Assembly (NCBI RefSeq): GCF_019278525.1
Contig: NZ_CP058986.1
Span: forward strand, 3,053,001-3,117,000
Origin: Polaribacter sp. HaHaR_3_91
Lineage (GTDB): Bacteria > Bacteroidota > Bacteroidia > Flavobacteriales > Flavobacteriaceae
DNA length: 64,000 nucleotides
Direction of reading: 5' to 3'
The stretch's first letter is position 1. Every line of letters begins with the position of its first letter. Positions 417 through 62,876 of this stretch are shown one piece after another. A program made the translations under genes and the position numbers. The notes below the pieces were generated by a model. The model was not told the origin of the DNA, searched no databases, and worked only from the letters and a program-made list of their open reading frames with translations.

Positions 417-559
417 AGTTGCCAACACCGTATATAATTTATTGCTGGCTTATTGCTTACTTACGAAAGTCCTCGCGGACTTTCTTGGTCGGTAAATATT
501 TACTAAATTAGTTGCTTGAAACACGCAACAAACCATATACAACAACGTTAGCACCAAGC
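417..559 (+). repeat. attC-like structured repeat, copy 1
   Basis: A 132-bp core runs from GCCAAC (421) to GTTAGC (547-552) and is repeated at 1345-1476 with about nine mismatches and no gaps. The ends form an imperfect inverted repeat. Inside, GTATAT near the left end pairs with ATATAC near the right end, with unequal spacers. Further in are a hairpin with arms GAAAGTCC and GGACTTTC around a TCGC loop and a smaller GTTGC/GCAAC hairpin. This nested plan and length fit integron attC recombination sites. The left end AGTTGCCAAC does not match the complement of its own right end, as expected if each site is assembled from two cassettes. Confidence 0.6.
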
Positions 560-1471
560 AAAAACCAACAATGTGAAAACATACCTAGACACGAATATTC
601 TATATTACAAACATCAAGGTCAGAATTTAAATTTAAATATTAAGGGAAAATCTATAACTTCTATTAATGCATTGGAATTTCTAAAAAACATAGAAAAAAA
701 ACATCATAATAAAGCAAAATATCACATTCCGTTTATAACGAATCACATTCACCAAATAGCAATCGCAAGAATGCATAAATCAATTAAAAAGAGCCACCCA
801 TTTAATAAAAGATTGTCTGATTCTATAATTTTTGATTTTTCTCAAGATTTTGAAAGCTATTCTCTATATAATAATAAATCTGTATCGGAAGTAATTAATA
901 ATAAAAGAAAAGAACTATTCTACTCTTCAATAGAATTTTTAGGTAAATCTGAAAATAAAGACATAAAAAACAAATTTAAGTTTGTATTGGAAAACGACCT
1001 TAAATGTGACATATTAAACCCTGAAGATATTTATTTAGGATATGAATTACTCAATGAATTTTTAAAAAAGCACACACTAAAACCTGACTTTAGAAATTGT
1101 TGGAATGACATATTAATTTTAGCCAAAAGTGTTAATGAAGGAGCTAAACTAATTACTTCTGACAAATTATTGAATAAATTTGCCAGTGAAGTTTACAATG
1201 GACAAATTAAACAAGTTGATAACACAATAGAAATCCAATTTCCATCAAGTGATGAAAATCTAGAAAATAATTGGACAAAACAAGAAAGTAAAGGATATAT
1301 AAATCGAGGTTGGCAATATAAAATGAATAAATAAAATGCCTGGTGCTAACACCGTATATAATTTATTGCTGGCTTCTCGCTTACTTACGAAAGTCCTCGC
1401 GGACTTTCTTGGTCAGTAATTATTTACTAAATTAGTTGCTTAAACCACGCAACAAACCATATACAAACACG
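548..1471 (+). mobile_element. Integron-like gene cassette carrying one PIN-domain gene
   Basis: The unit runs from the presumed G^TT crossover in copy 1 (547/548) to the same point in copy 2 (1471/1472). It holds a single ORF that starts 26 bases after the left boundary and ends just before the second repeat. The deciding observation is that GCCTGGTGCTAAC at 1338-1350 is complementary in 12 of 13 positions to GTTAGCACCAAGC at 547-559, the right end of the previous site, while complementarity to its own right end stops after seven bases. In integron cassettes the attC arms match in exactly this way because the circular cassette closes on itself. No integrase is present in the window, so mobility is inferred. 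Confidence 0.55.
573..1334 (+). CDS. PIN-domain protein (putative RNase)
   Basis: The 253-residue product starts at a GTG (573), which gives KTYLDTNILYY at the N terminus, the classic first PIN motif with its metal-binding Asp. The C-terminal half has NDILILAKS and KLITSDKLL, corresponding to the later acidic positions of PIN nucleases. PIN proteins are metal-dependent RNases and are commonly VapC-type toxins, but this one is about 100 residues longer than typical VapC and has no small antitoxin gene next to it. It is the only gene of the cassette at 548-1471, lying tightly between two attC-like repeats. It is AT-rich. Other possibilities are a tRNA or mRNA nuclease acting in phage defence. 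The PIN assignment is fairly firm; the biological role is unknown. Confidence 0.7.
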   Translation: MKTYLDTNILYYKHQGQNLNLNIKGKSITSINALEFLKNIEKKHHNKAKYHIPFITNHIHQIAIARMHKSIKKSHPFNKRLSDSIIFDFSQDFESYSLYNNKSVSEVINNKRKELFYSSIEFLGKSENKDIKNKFKFVLENDLKCDILNPEDIYLGYELLNEFLKKHTLKPDFRNCWNDILILAKSVNEGAKLITSDKLLNKFASEVYNGQIKQVDNTIEIQFPSSDENLENNWTKQESKGYINRGWQYKMNK

Positions 1472-1483
1472 TTAGCAACAACT
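1338..1483 (+). repeat. attC-like structured repeat, copy 2
   Basis: Second copy of the 132-bp structured element (core 1345-1476), about 93 percent identical to copy 1. It starts three bases after the stop codon of the PIN gene. Its left arm TGGTGCTAAC is the exact complement of the right end of copy 1 (547-556). Its own right end reads GTTAGCAACAACT and is followed at once by an ATG (1484), which would be the start of the next cassette's gene; that gene is cut after 17 bases by the IS3 element. Confidence 0.6.
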
Positions 1484-1544
1484 ATGAAAATGTACTTTCC
1501 TGAAATAGGTTGACTAAAAATTAAACACTTAATTATAGTCACTT

Positions 1545-2003
1545 ATGAAAGCTCAAAAACAACCCTGGCGAAAAAAAACGTACGAAAAAGCAACTTTAGA
1601 ACTCAAATTATTCGTCGTTGACCAAATTCAGAATGGACAGATTTCCACAAACTTTGCTTCCAAAAAATATGATGTTCCTAGAACTACAATTGGGTATTGG
1701 ATCAAAAAATATAGTACTTTAGTCCAACAAAATACAGGTATGAGTAAATTAGATGAGATTAAAAAACTAAAGGAACGTATTGAAGAATTGGAGTTTGTAA
1801 AGGAATTTCAACAAGATATTATTGCTGACATGGAAATCATTACTGGAGTCGATTTGTCAAAAAAGTCGTTGCCCAAAACATTAGCGAAAGAGATAGAACT
1901 AAAAAAGAAAAACCGTTTAAAAGAAAATGGTTCTATGAGTGTTTTGGGATTAGTAAACAAGCCTTCTACAAAAGACTCAAAACCCAAAAAAACAAACGAC
2001 TAA
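1545..2003 (+). CDS. IS3-family transposase OrfA
   Basis: A 152-residue basic protein. Residues about 10-60 form a helix-turn-helix of the transposase_8/IS911 OrfA type (NFASKKYDVPRTTIGYWIKK). A heptad-rich stretch follows (KLDEIKKLKERIEELEFV) that probably acts as the leucine-zipper dimerisation region. The last 30 residues are the zero-frame tail after the frameshift site and are probably not important. OrfA binds the terminal repeats and, through frameshifting, supplies the N-terminal half of the OrfAB transposase. Confidence 0.85.
   Translation: MKAQKQPWRKKTYEKATLELKLFVVDQIQNGQISTNFASKKYDVPRTTIGYWIKKYSTLVQQNTGMSKLDEIKKLKERIEELEFVKEFQQDIIADMEIITGVDLSKKSLPKTLAKEIELKKKNRLKENGSMSVLGLVNKPSTKDSKPKKTND
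1901..1907 (+). promoter_or_regulatory. Programmed -1 frameshift site A_AAA_AAG
   Basis: The heptamer is in the right phase relative to orfA (codons CTA AAA AAG). Slipping back one base at 1907 enters a frame that is open through EKPFKRKWFYECFGISKQ into OrfB. A_AAA_AAG is a canonical slippery sequence for IS3-family elements. Confidence 0.75.
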
Positions 2004-2797
2004 ACGATGAAAAAGTCATCGTAATGATACAAGAATATCGAAAATTAGTTGGTATGAGAACTGGCGGAATTAAGTTATATGATGAACTTAAACAAGACTT
2101 TATAAAACAAGGTATTAAAATCGGTAGAGACAAGTTGTACGATGTGTTAAGGCTTCATAATTTACTTGTTCCTAAGCTTAAAAACTATGTAACAACAACA
2201 AATTCTAATCATCAATTTAGAAAATATAAAAACCTAATTAAAGACCAAGTTCCTACTCGACCAGAACAACTATGGGTAAGCGATATAACATACATTAAAA
2301 CAGACAATGGACACAATTACCTAGCAATCGTTACAGATGCATATTCTAAACAAATTATGGGCTATAAATTAGATAACAACATGAAGACATCACTTTGTTC
2401 AGAAGCGCTAGAAATGGCTATTAAAAATAGAAAATACCCTGATAAAAAATTAATACATCATTCTGACAGAGGTTTTCAATACTGTAACCCCAAATACACA
2501 GCATTTGCAGAAGAAAATGGCATAATGATGAGCATGACAGAACAATATGATCCTTATGAAAACGCAATTGCAGAGCGAATTAATAGAACTTTAAAATATG
2601 AATATGGACTTAGAAATTGCTTTAAAAACACTGCCATTGCTCAAGAAGTAACAAAACAAGCAGTATATATTTACAACAATTTAAGAACCCATTTTAGCTT
2701 AGAATTAAGAAAGCCAGCTGAAGTACATTTAAATCCAAACATCAAATACAAATCATATCGAAGAAATAATGTAAATTTGACTGAACTAACAATTTGA
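1907..2797 (+). CDS. IS3-family transposase OrfB (DDE integrase core)
   Basis: The first ATG in frame is at 2024, but the frame is open from the slippery site and the residues before that ATG (WFYECFGISKQAFYKR) are typical IS3 OrfB sequence, so the functional product is an OrfAB fusion. Residues after the ATG hold the HTH_21 region and then the rve core: first Asp in WVSDITYI, second Asp in HHSDRGFQY, Glu in NAIAERINRTLKYE. All three catalytic residues are present and the reading frame is intact, so the element may still be active. Confidence 0.88.
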   Translation, partial: EKPFKRKWFYECFGISKQAFYKRLKTQKNKRLNDEKVIVMIQEYRKLVGMRTGGIKLYDELKQDFIKQGIKIGRDKLYDVLRLHNLLVPKLKNYVTTTNSNHQFRKYKNLIKDQVPTRPEQLWVSDITYIKTDNGHNYLAIVTDAYSKQIMGYKLDNNMKTSLCSEALEMAIKNRKYPDKKLIHHSDRGFQYCNPKYTAFAEENGIMMSMTEQYDPYENAIAERINRTLKYEYGLRNCFKNTAIAQEVTKQAVYIYNNLRTHFSLELRKPAEVHLNPNIKYKSYRRNNVNLTELTI

Positions 2798-2972
2798 AAA
2801 CAAAACTAGTTCAAATTATTTTTTGCCTTCTAAACGGCTAAAAAAATCTTTTGAACGGTATAAATTAACCTAAAAAAAGGTCAACCTATATCAGTATAAT
2901 ACAGTATGTAAAACATATAGTAAAAATCAGTAAATTGCATACAGAAATTTATACTAATAATCTGGTCTAAAC

Positions 2973-2996: not shown

Positions 2997-3043
2997 ACAA
3001 ATAAAAAAGGTTATTTATTACGTTATAAGCATTTTAACTCGAA

Positions 3044-3087
3044 TTCATAACCCTGAGGTCACGGGTTCAAATCCCGTTCTCGCTACA
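3044..3087 (+). other. 3' fragment of a tRNA gene (anticodon CAT), probable island att site
   Basis: From CATAA (3046) the sequence folds as the 3' half of a tRNA: anticodon-stem 3' strand CCCTG, variable loop AGGTC, T stem ACGGG/CCCGT around TTCAAAT, acceptor strand TCTCGCT and discriminator A (3085). The bases before it do not contain the 5' half (no CAGGG, D arm or AGCGAGA acceptor strand), so this is not a functional tRNA. A tRNA 3' end cut in the anticodon loop is the usual product of integrase-mediated insertion. The intact gene is expected at the far, upstream end of the island. Confidence 0.65.
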
Positions 3088-62739: not shown

Positions 62740-62792
62740 CTTTAAATGTTGTTTAATTGTTTATTTGTATAATTTTTTTATTGTGTTGTATT

Positions 62793-62876
62793 GCGTTAGG
62801 GATTGAAATGACATCCTTTTTGCTTTTTTGCAAAAAGATATAATGTAAAGCCCGACCTTTTTAGGGAACGCCCTAA
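62793..62876 (+). repeat. Nested inverted-repeat element between xylB and xylA
   Basis: The 84 bases fold in layers: TTAGGG at the left pairs with CCCTAA at the right, ACAT with ATGT, and inside them CTTTTTGC pairs with GCAAAAAG around a short T loop. Elements of this type (GGGATTGAAATGACATCC... AAAGCCCGACC) are familiar to me as dispersed intergenic repeats in Flavobacteriia. Whether it is transcribed, acts as a terminator or is a REP-like mobile repeat is unknown. Confidence 0.45.

Follow-up and report, generated by a model that had tools for sequence, protein, structure and literature searches.

The repeats that we describe here, from the chromosome of the flavobacterium Polaribacter sp. 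HaHaR_3_91, are very probably attC-like recombination sites of a Bacteroidota integron-like cassette system, one that is served by a dedicated tyrosine recombinase without an I2 domain; with the same high confidence, we hold that this system works like an integron. The case is built from sequence: the anatomy of the arrays, the covariation within the sites, the complementarity of the arms of neighboring sites, the linkage of the sites to the recombinase, the phylogeny of this enzyme and the duplication of entire cassette units. Judged by that phylogeny, the recombinase is the sister of the IntI integron integrases, lacking their I2 and having an extra N-terminal domain of ~75 aa. We do not place the system within the IntI-defined integron family because the recombinase was examined for the defining I2 domain and does not have it. 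With somewhat more confidence than doubt, we see in it a second integron lineage of the Bacteroidota, whose integrase either never had I2 or lost it and which would recombine folded single-stranded sites.

The Repeat Pair and Its Gene Cassette

The window, by which we mean the whole stretch of 64,000 nt that was analyzed, corresponds to positions 3053001-3117000 of a genome that consists of a single contig of 4.2 Mb. The features at its beginning are the following.

1 to 399, + strand: 3' part of the upstream cassette ORF (389 aa in total, its start lying outside the window)
417 to 426, + strand: left outer arm of site 1, forming a 9-nt complementary run with the start of the upstream cassette (GTTGGCAAC...)
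424 to 551, + strand: attC-like site 1 (AAC...GTTAG), which lies at the end of the upstream cassette and ahead of the PIN-like one; CM match of 114.9 bits
547 to 559, + strand: right outer arm, the first bases of the PIN-like cassette, complementary to 1338-1350 at 12 of 13 positions
548 to 1471, + strand: single gene cassette of 924 bp, with limits set by the arms; duplicated cassettes elsewhere have limits of this kind
573 to 1334, + strand: cassette ORF of 253 aa, weakly PIN-like (PF01850, E 0.007, under the curated cut-off)
1338 to 1350, + strand: left outer arm of site 2, recognized by arm complementarity
1348 to 1475, + strand: attC-like site 2, with a full-length hairpin from the bottom strand of 1338-1478 (z -5.1)
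1491 to 2903, + strand: IS3-family element, starting exactly 20 bp past the GTT of site 2, its right end placed where the match between copies is lost

The original prediction, which held that two structured repeats of about 93 percent identity flank a single gene, was borne out: 424-551 and 1348-1475 are identical at 120 of 128 positions and the mean column identity is 93% in a 157-column alignment that includes the flanks. The arms also behave as had been proposed, since the left arm of site 2 pairs with the right arm of site 1 as listed above and its pairing with its own right end stops at 7 nt; even the beginning that had been predicted for the upstream cassette, GTTGGCAACTGGCTT, proved to be correct over its first 9 nt, GTTGGCAACAAGC. 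The limits given for the cassette follow the G/TT convention of integrons and, by analogy with integrons, the crossover would be expected to occur inside the GTT of the 547-559 arm. Other details needed revision. GTTAGC had been placed at the right end only, which is true of copy 1 (its left end is GCCAAC) but not of copy 2, whose left end, GCTAAC, is the reverse complement of GTTAGC. The name "Shedu-like" for the upstream gene is not supported, its 389-aa protein having no PADLOC family and no Pfam family over cut-off, and the PIN label of the cassette gene survives in the form of the weak PF01850 match.

In its array context, site 1 shows no significant fold (z -0.93 for the top strand and -1.40 for the bottom strand); the full hairpin emerges once the two arms of one and the same cassette are paired. 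When the window was searched with Rfam, using gathering scores, nothing was returned at the repeat element, the sole match being a Flavo-1 RNA (RF01705) at 62788-62861 with 56.8 bits.

Copies across the Genome and the Complementarity of Their Arms

Searches of this genome and of its relatives revealed many copies of the element, clustered and head to tail. In the Polaribacter genome, there are at least 58 near-complete copies of the ~127-bp element, distributed in seven clusters plus one single site. A profile search gave 71 raw matches in these eight regions; after the removal of weak wrong-strand echoes, the pieces number 27, 15, 4, 9, 3, 6, 3, and 1 in regions A to H, with 58 close to full length in all; two further sites (L270, L271) lie outside the eight. 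Every copy within a region has the head-to-tail orientation except one, the true reversed copy at 3027912, which was among the wrong-strand matches (E > 1e-4) that were dropped before counting, as were the halves of IS-split sites, pairs without an arm and those without GTT/AAC near the expected place.

The left arm of a site forms a complementary run of at least 9 nt with the right arm of the previous copy in 38 of the 50 neighbor pairs where both arms are present, and with its own right arm in none of 42. In 2000 shuffles of the neighbor pairs, a mean of 1.38 and a maximum of 6 pairs had such a run; the complementarity between neighbors is far beyond chance. The rule fails in the other 12: one of these, at 3041037, pairs instead over 10 nt with the attI-like platform junction described below, some have an IS in the cassette and the remainder are unexplained. 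Outside this genome, 43 of 67 pairs in other genera obey the rule (shuffles again giving a mean of 1.38 and a maximum of 6), and the two arms of one site reach 9 nt in 6 of 99 cases. The cassette array with attC-like arms that had been predicted is thus upheld by the arm rule, by ORFs on the same strand and by the attI-like junction, and none of the observations named beforehand as contrary to it (copies that occur singly, flank no ORFs or show no complementarity) was made.

Structure of the Sites

The aligned copies are consistent with a hairpin of 20 pairs. Over 53 copies (52 distinct), 96.0% of the cells are paired, compared with 84.1% after shuffling, and 12 of the 20 pairs have changes on both sides, that is, covariation; when the partners are slid by 1-3 columns, 35-59% are paired, a control that favors the hairpin because the structure was derived from these same rows. 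The long stem has an extra base at column 15 in 4 of the 53 copies and at column 24 in 1 of them. Taken in their circle form, 30 of 36 sites of this genome have a 10-12 bp outer stem followed by a one-sided 3-nt bulge and then the long stem, and at least 25 of 41 sites from other genera have a one-sided bulge of 2-4 nt. By computation, the sites would have the imperfect hairpin on the bottom strand that is a feature of attC. The R-box core of integron attC sites is RYYYAAC/GTTRRRY, and these sites rarely follow it: among right arms that were selected for the presence of GTT, GTTRRRY is kept in 6 of 50 from this genome and 5 of 99 from others, GTT itself being conserved.

On this anatomy, each cassette, once free as a circle, would have a single site, the bottom strand of which would fold into a 10-12 bp R stem with a cassette-specific outer part, a one-sided bulge of 3-4 nt and a conserved stem of ~17 bp. 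The recombinase would then swap the AAC/GTT triplet of the hairpin with either attI or a second site of this type, an exchange that could insert, excise and reshuffle small gene cassettes. We infer that catalysis is performed by the linked recombinase with the folded bottom strand as its substrate, and that resolution takes the integron route.

An alternative to which we give a small but real share of belief accepts the cassettes as real and supposes that recombination occurs on double-stranded sites, the hairpin being simply two inverted arms that bind the recombinase. The absence of I2 and the Xer-like motif spacing described below would suit such a mechanism, as would the double-strand activity that IntI itself retains according to PMC4792948. 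However, the outer arms vary and yet remain complementary to the other end of their own cassette, and this counts against double-stranded recognition because a site read by its sequence would conserve that sequence; moreover, the bottom strand of the circle-form sites is more stable than the top strand in 36 of 36 cases in this genome and in 38 of 41 in other genera. Recombination of folded sites is the reading that we retain.

The Recombinase Platform and Its Linkage to the Arrays

Two platform copies were found, each with a recombinase gene.

2980378 to 2981493 (genome): gene of a tyrosine recombinase (371 aa) that heads main array A
3037282 to 3038399 (genome): second copy of the recombinase gene, split into two overlapping ORFs

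In its own genome, this recombinase (E 1e-60) is confined to region A, and clusters B to H have none beside them. Some 110 bp past its stop codon lies an attI-like junction, ending TATAAACAA/GTT. Up to ...ATAAGCATATAAACAAGTT, the two platforms match with 98-99% identity; beyond it they differ, the divergence beginning directly after AAACAAGTT. In platform copy 2, the left arm of the first site has a 10-nt complementary partner in the bases past the point of divergence; in platform copy 1, the corresponding arm has no partner of 8 nt or more. The sequence points to a putative attI, the place beside an integrase gene at which the first cassette is joined. A scan for the Bacteroidota-type promoter pattern, which might have marked a Pc promoter at the platform, gave no match within 150 bp of the ends of the sites; on the platform, the array strand had no match either. 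Both platform copies are preceded by a 489-aa (~500-aa) tyrosine recombinase (L031:7949-9418, L034:4436-5905), relatives of which occur elsewhere (L060-L064), some of them near other arrays. It was rejected as the actor, there being no homolog (E 1e-20) in the 80 loci considered next.

These 80 named Bacteroidota loci are the best 80 of 574 that have a homolog of the 371-aa recombinase. Site matches (E 0.05) occur in 36 of them, among which are Polaribacter, Algibacter, Cellulophaga, Flavobacterium, Algoriphagus, Cyclobacterium and others, and all 103 of the 103 matches lie downstream of the recombinase on its own strand, with none upstream, in an examined total of 701 kb of upstream and 350 kb of downstream DNA. 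Of the 44 loci without a site match, 33 have a contig end within 2 kb downstream and 11 do not; among all 80, there is a contig end no more than 2 kb downstream in 39 and no more than 2 kb upstream in 2. Arm pairs that were sought without any model have a frequency of 0.328 per kb downstream and 0.027 per kb upstream. In 32 of the 36 loci, an arm partner of at least 7 nt exists for the first site, and in 25 of the 36 this partner is 77-140 bp past the recombinase, with TATA[AT]A just before it in 22 of the 25.

It is improbable, in our opinion, that this recombinase is a passenger and that cassette movement depends on the host Xer or on some other recombinase. Most arrays of the Polaribacter genome are indeed far from the recombinase gene, and other tyrosine recombinases are found near arrays; against this stand the linkage in the named loci, entirely one-sided and on the same strand, and the location of the attI-like junction right after the recombinase gene. 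We therefore keep to the linked recombinase as the probable catalyst.

Affinities of the Recombinase and Distribution of the Sites

The original prediction called for a tyrosine recombinase of the IntI type. A tyrosine recombinase does head the main array, but it is not of this type: it scores 192 bits against TIGR02249 (cut-off 265), and its best NCBIfam match is NF040815 (XerA/integron integrase) with 208 bits (cut-off 220). Its alignment to IntI4 breaks at chain 208/240. The spacing from the GLR to the LRH motif is 93 in this protein and 93-94 in 51 of 52 members of its family, the other reading 275, which is probably an artefact of the pattern; it is 135 in 19 of 19 IntI proteins and 96-116 in 15 Xer proteins, these being the ones with the text pattern among 76 family (76 of 80 proteins past the length filter), 28 IntI (from 30 loci), and 16 Xer proteins. 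A spacing of 93-94 as against 135 shows that the I2 region is absent, and an IntI-family integrase with the additional I2 domain is not what these arrays have.

In phylogenetic trees, the recombinase family groups with IntI (support 99/91) against XerC/D, two archaeal XerA proteins and six other recombinases. The 14 IntI sequences are united with 100/100; support for the recombinase family itself is 82/73 in one tree (23 family rows, including our own), where three of the six other recombinases have very long branches, and 92 in the other (39 rows), so a single origin of the family is moderately supported. A predicted structure, from a 10-row alignment and with a pTM of 0.52 that makes it too coarse for fine claims, would add a small alpha/beta N-terminal domain, the extra ~75 aa; in Foldseek, it is best matched by XerA and by IntI4, an integron integrase.

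Of 149 genomes in the bacterial family, 131 have matches to site model R1 and 91 encode the recombinase (E 1e-60). The recombinase occurs in 87 of the 131 site-bearing genomes, the other 44 being without it at E 1e-60, and in 4 of the 18 site-less ones (p 5e-4), an association that is confounded by the site-less genomes being mostly small. Site model R2, which was built from R1 matches and so carries the bias of R1, has matches in 192 of 296 genomes of the class. Its use as a negative control was not clean, there being matches in 21 of 45 other-class genomes that have an IntI match (44 over cut-off). Among 20 stretches at such other-class site matches, taken from 14 of the 21 genomes, 7 have a family-type recombinase (in one case a piece), one has a full IntI ~4 kb from the sites and not at the head of the array, one has a piece of IntI and 12 have neither kind of enzyme. 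The 7 with a family-type recombinase suggest that the site family extends beyond the class.

Two side observations concern the arrangement of these genes. A shorter subtype of the recombinase, present in three of the 7 stretches with a family-type enzyme and having open frames of 280-319 aa and a spacing of 93, faces away from the array (L278:6818-7774, L284:11763-12602, L291:14554-15450); in class 1 integrons, intI points away from the array. At L281:2005-3854, a piece of canonical IntI and a piece of family-type recombinase lie less than 2 kb apart.

The sites might also be remnants of canonical IntI integrons (CALIN) that an IntI moves in trans, a view to which we accord very little probability. 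It can appeal to the matches in 21 of the 45 other-class genomes with IntI and to the absence of an adjoining recombinase in clusters B to H. However, the Polaribacter genome has no TIGR02249 match over cut-off; IntI exceeds the cut-off in 85 of 296 Bacteroidota genomes, being common in other classes of the phylum, and among those listed only one (G183) is of the same class. Nor do the other-class stretches favor IntI, given the 7 family-type recombinases against a single full IntI and one piece, and GTTRRRY is seldom kept in the sites. A dedicated recombinase of the sister family thus remains our choice.

Contents of the Cassettes and Insertion Elements

At the median, the segments between sites are 937 bp long. 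Of 53 segments, 52 have their longest ORF on the array strand and one has no ORF; this count left out site gaps above 6 kb and IS-split sites, and granted the array strand a few bases more than the opposite strand. There is one ORF of at least 50 aa in 35 segments, several in 17 (some of them IS genes) and none in 1. Small cassettes with ORFs in a single orientation, as in integrons, are therefore what is found here.

A content of defence or toxin genes had been suggested, and this applies to a part of the cassettes and not to the remainder. A PADLOC scan of 61 of the 64 cassette proteins (at least 25 of 66 families listed; ten proteins scanned singly) gave several defence matches, which include bSEFIR, AbiLi-like, AriA/Old/GajA-like, PDC-S06 and SpbK-like proteins. 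Three of the ten proteins scanned singly had no family, namely the two from the window and the NACHT ATPase encoded by the first cassette of platform copy 2.

Entire cassettes have been duplicated. One is found at both 2984624-2987503 and 2996205-2999083 (99.5% identity over the match); a second occurs in cluster B, where it has an IS3 20 bp in, and again in cluster F (99.6%). In these duplicates, identity starts and stops at GTT or a few conserved bases off, and the neighboring cassettes differ.

The IS3-family element begins exactly 20 bp past an attC-like GTT in 13 of 15 copies (window 1491-2903; L259, L261-L272), a count that excludes a 16th match of 48 bp and includes some copies in duplicated segments; it looks as if this element targets the heads of cassettes. 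A different IS of ~1.43 kb sits in the hairpin tip (near model position 63) of four sites, and a fifth half-site occurs in cluster C.

L032:3648-5080: ~1.43-kb IS copy
genome 3049167-3050592 (L034/L035): ~1.43-kb IS copy
L037:3306-4740: ~1.43-kb IS copy
L040:12993-14421: ~1.43-kb IS copy

After the IS3-family element of the window, at the end of the array, a stretch at ~3035-3087 resembles by eye the 3' part of a tRNA and is perhaps the edge of an island; ARAGORN found no whole tRNA there. That the sites are ordinary dispersed repeats or transposon ends, as their scatter over the genome and their targeting by two IS elements might suggest, deserves practically no credence in view of the head-to-tail orientation, the arm rule, the same-strand ORFs and the attI junction.

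Implications

In open-licence PubMed Central articles (preprints being outside this scope), judged by title and start of abstract, we found no description of an I2-less array system. An integron screen filtered its candidates on the I2 domain (PMC9176274), and integrases like the 371-aa recombinase would therefore have been discarded. Bacteroidota are counted among the phyla with integrons (PMC8618304, PMC9668308), and in Bacteroidetes proper IntegronFinder 2.0 reported a single complete integron, that of Salinibacter ruber (PMC9024848). The insertion was described as essential for integron function and yet as incompletely conserved in an integron-like subgroup (PMC8138268), so others have already met I2-less relatives; the relevant passages of that article do not link them to arrays. 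Deletion of I2 abolishes the function of IntI1 and intermediates are noted as lacking (PMC7790495), and an I2-less enzyme that acts on hairpins is unexpected for this reason.

The system would seem to be a sister of classical integrons that has gone unnoticed. Its arrays would add a large and overlooked pool of gene cassettes, partly defence-like, because I2-filtered screens would miss them and, among the genomes listed, only one of the class has canonical IntI over the cut-off. They would also make testable a question raised in PMC4792948, of how hairpin sites and the I2 domain arose, one before the other. Should our reading be true and I2 never have been present, the recombinase would be a surviving example of the intermediate form demanded by the "chicken-egg" problem of I2 and attC; had I2 instead been lost, hairpin recombination would be independent of it.

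Comparison with Known Systems

The integration of CTXphi by the host XerCD (PMC4792948) likewise joins a hairpin site with I2-less recombinases, but CTXphi has neither a cassette array nor a recombinase of its own. XerC/XerD and the archaeal XerA share with our recombinase the lack of I2 and a similar motif spacing (96-116 in Xer and 93-94 in the family); unlike them, it groups with IntI and is linked to cassette arrays. Clusters B to H, being sites and cassettes without an adjoining recombinase, resemble CALIN, from which they differ in that a non-IntI recombinase is present elsewhere in the genome. With the sedentary chromosomal integrons, the system has in common a tyrosine recombinase at the head of the array, an attI-like junction, small same-strand cassettes, bottom-strand hairpin sites with an AAC/GTT triplet, arm complementarity between neighbors and duplicated cassettes. 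Unlike theirs, its recombinase lacks I2, has an extra N-terminal domain and is co-directional with the array in 36 of 36 named loci with matches (the three short members elsewhere being divergent), and its sites, rarely GTTRRRY, have a 10-12 bp R stem and a one-sided bulge of 3-4 nt.
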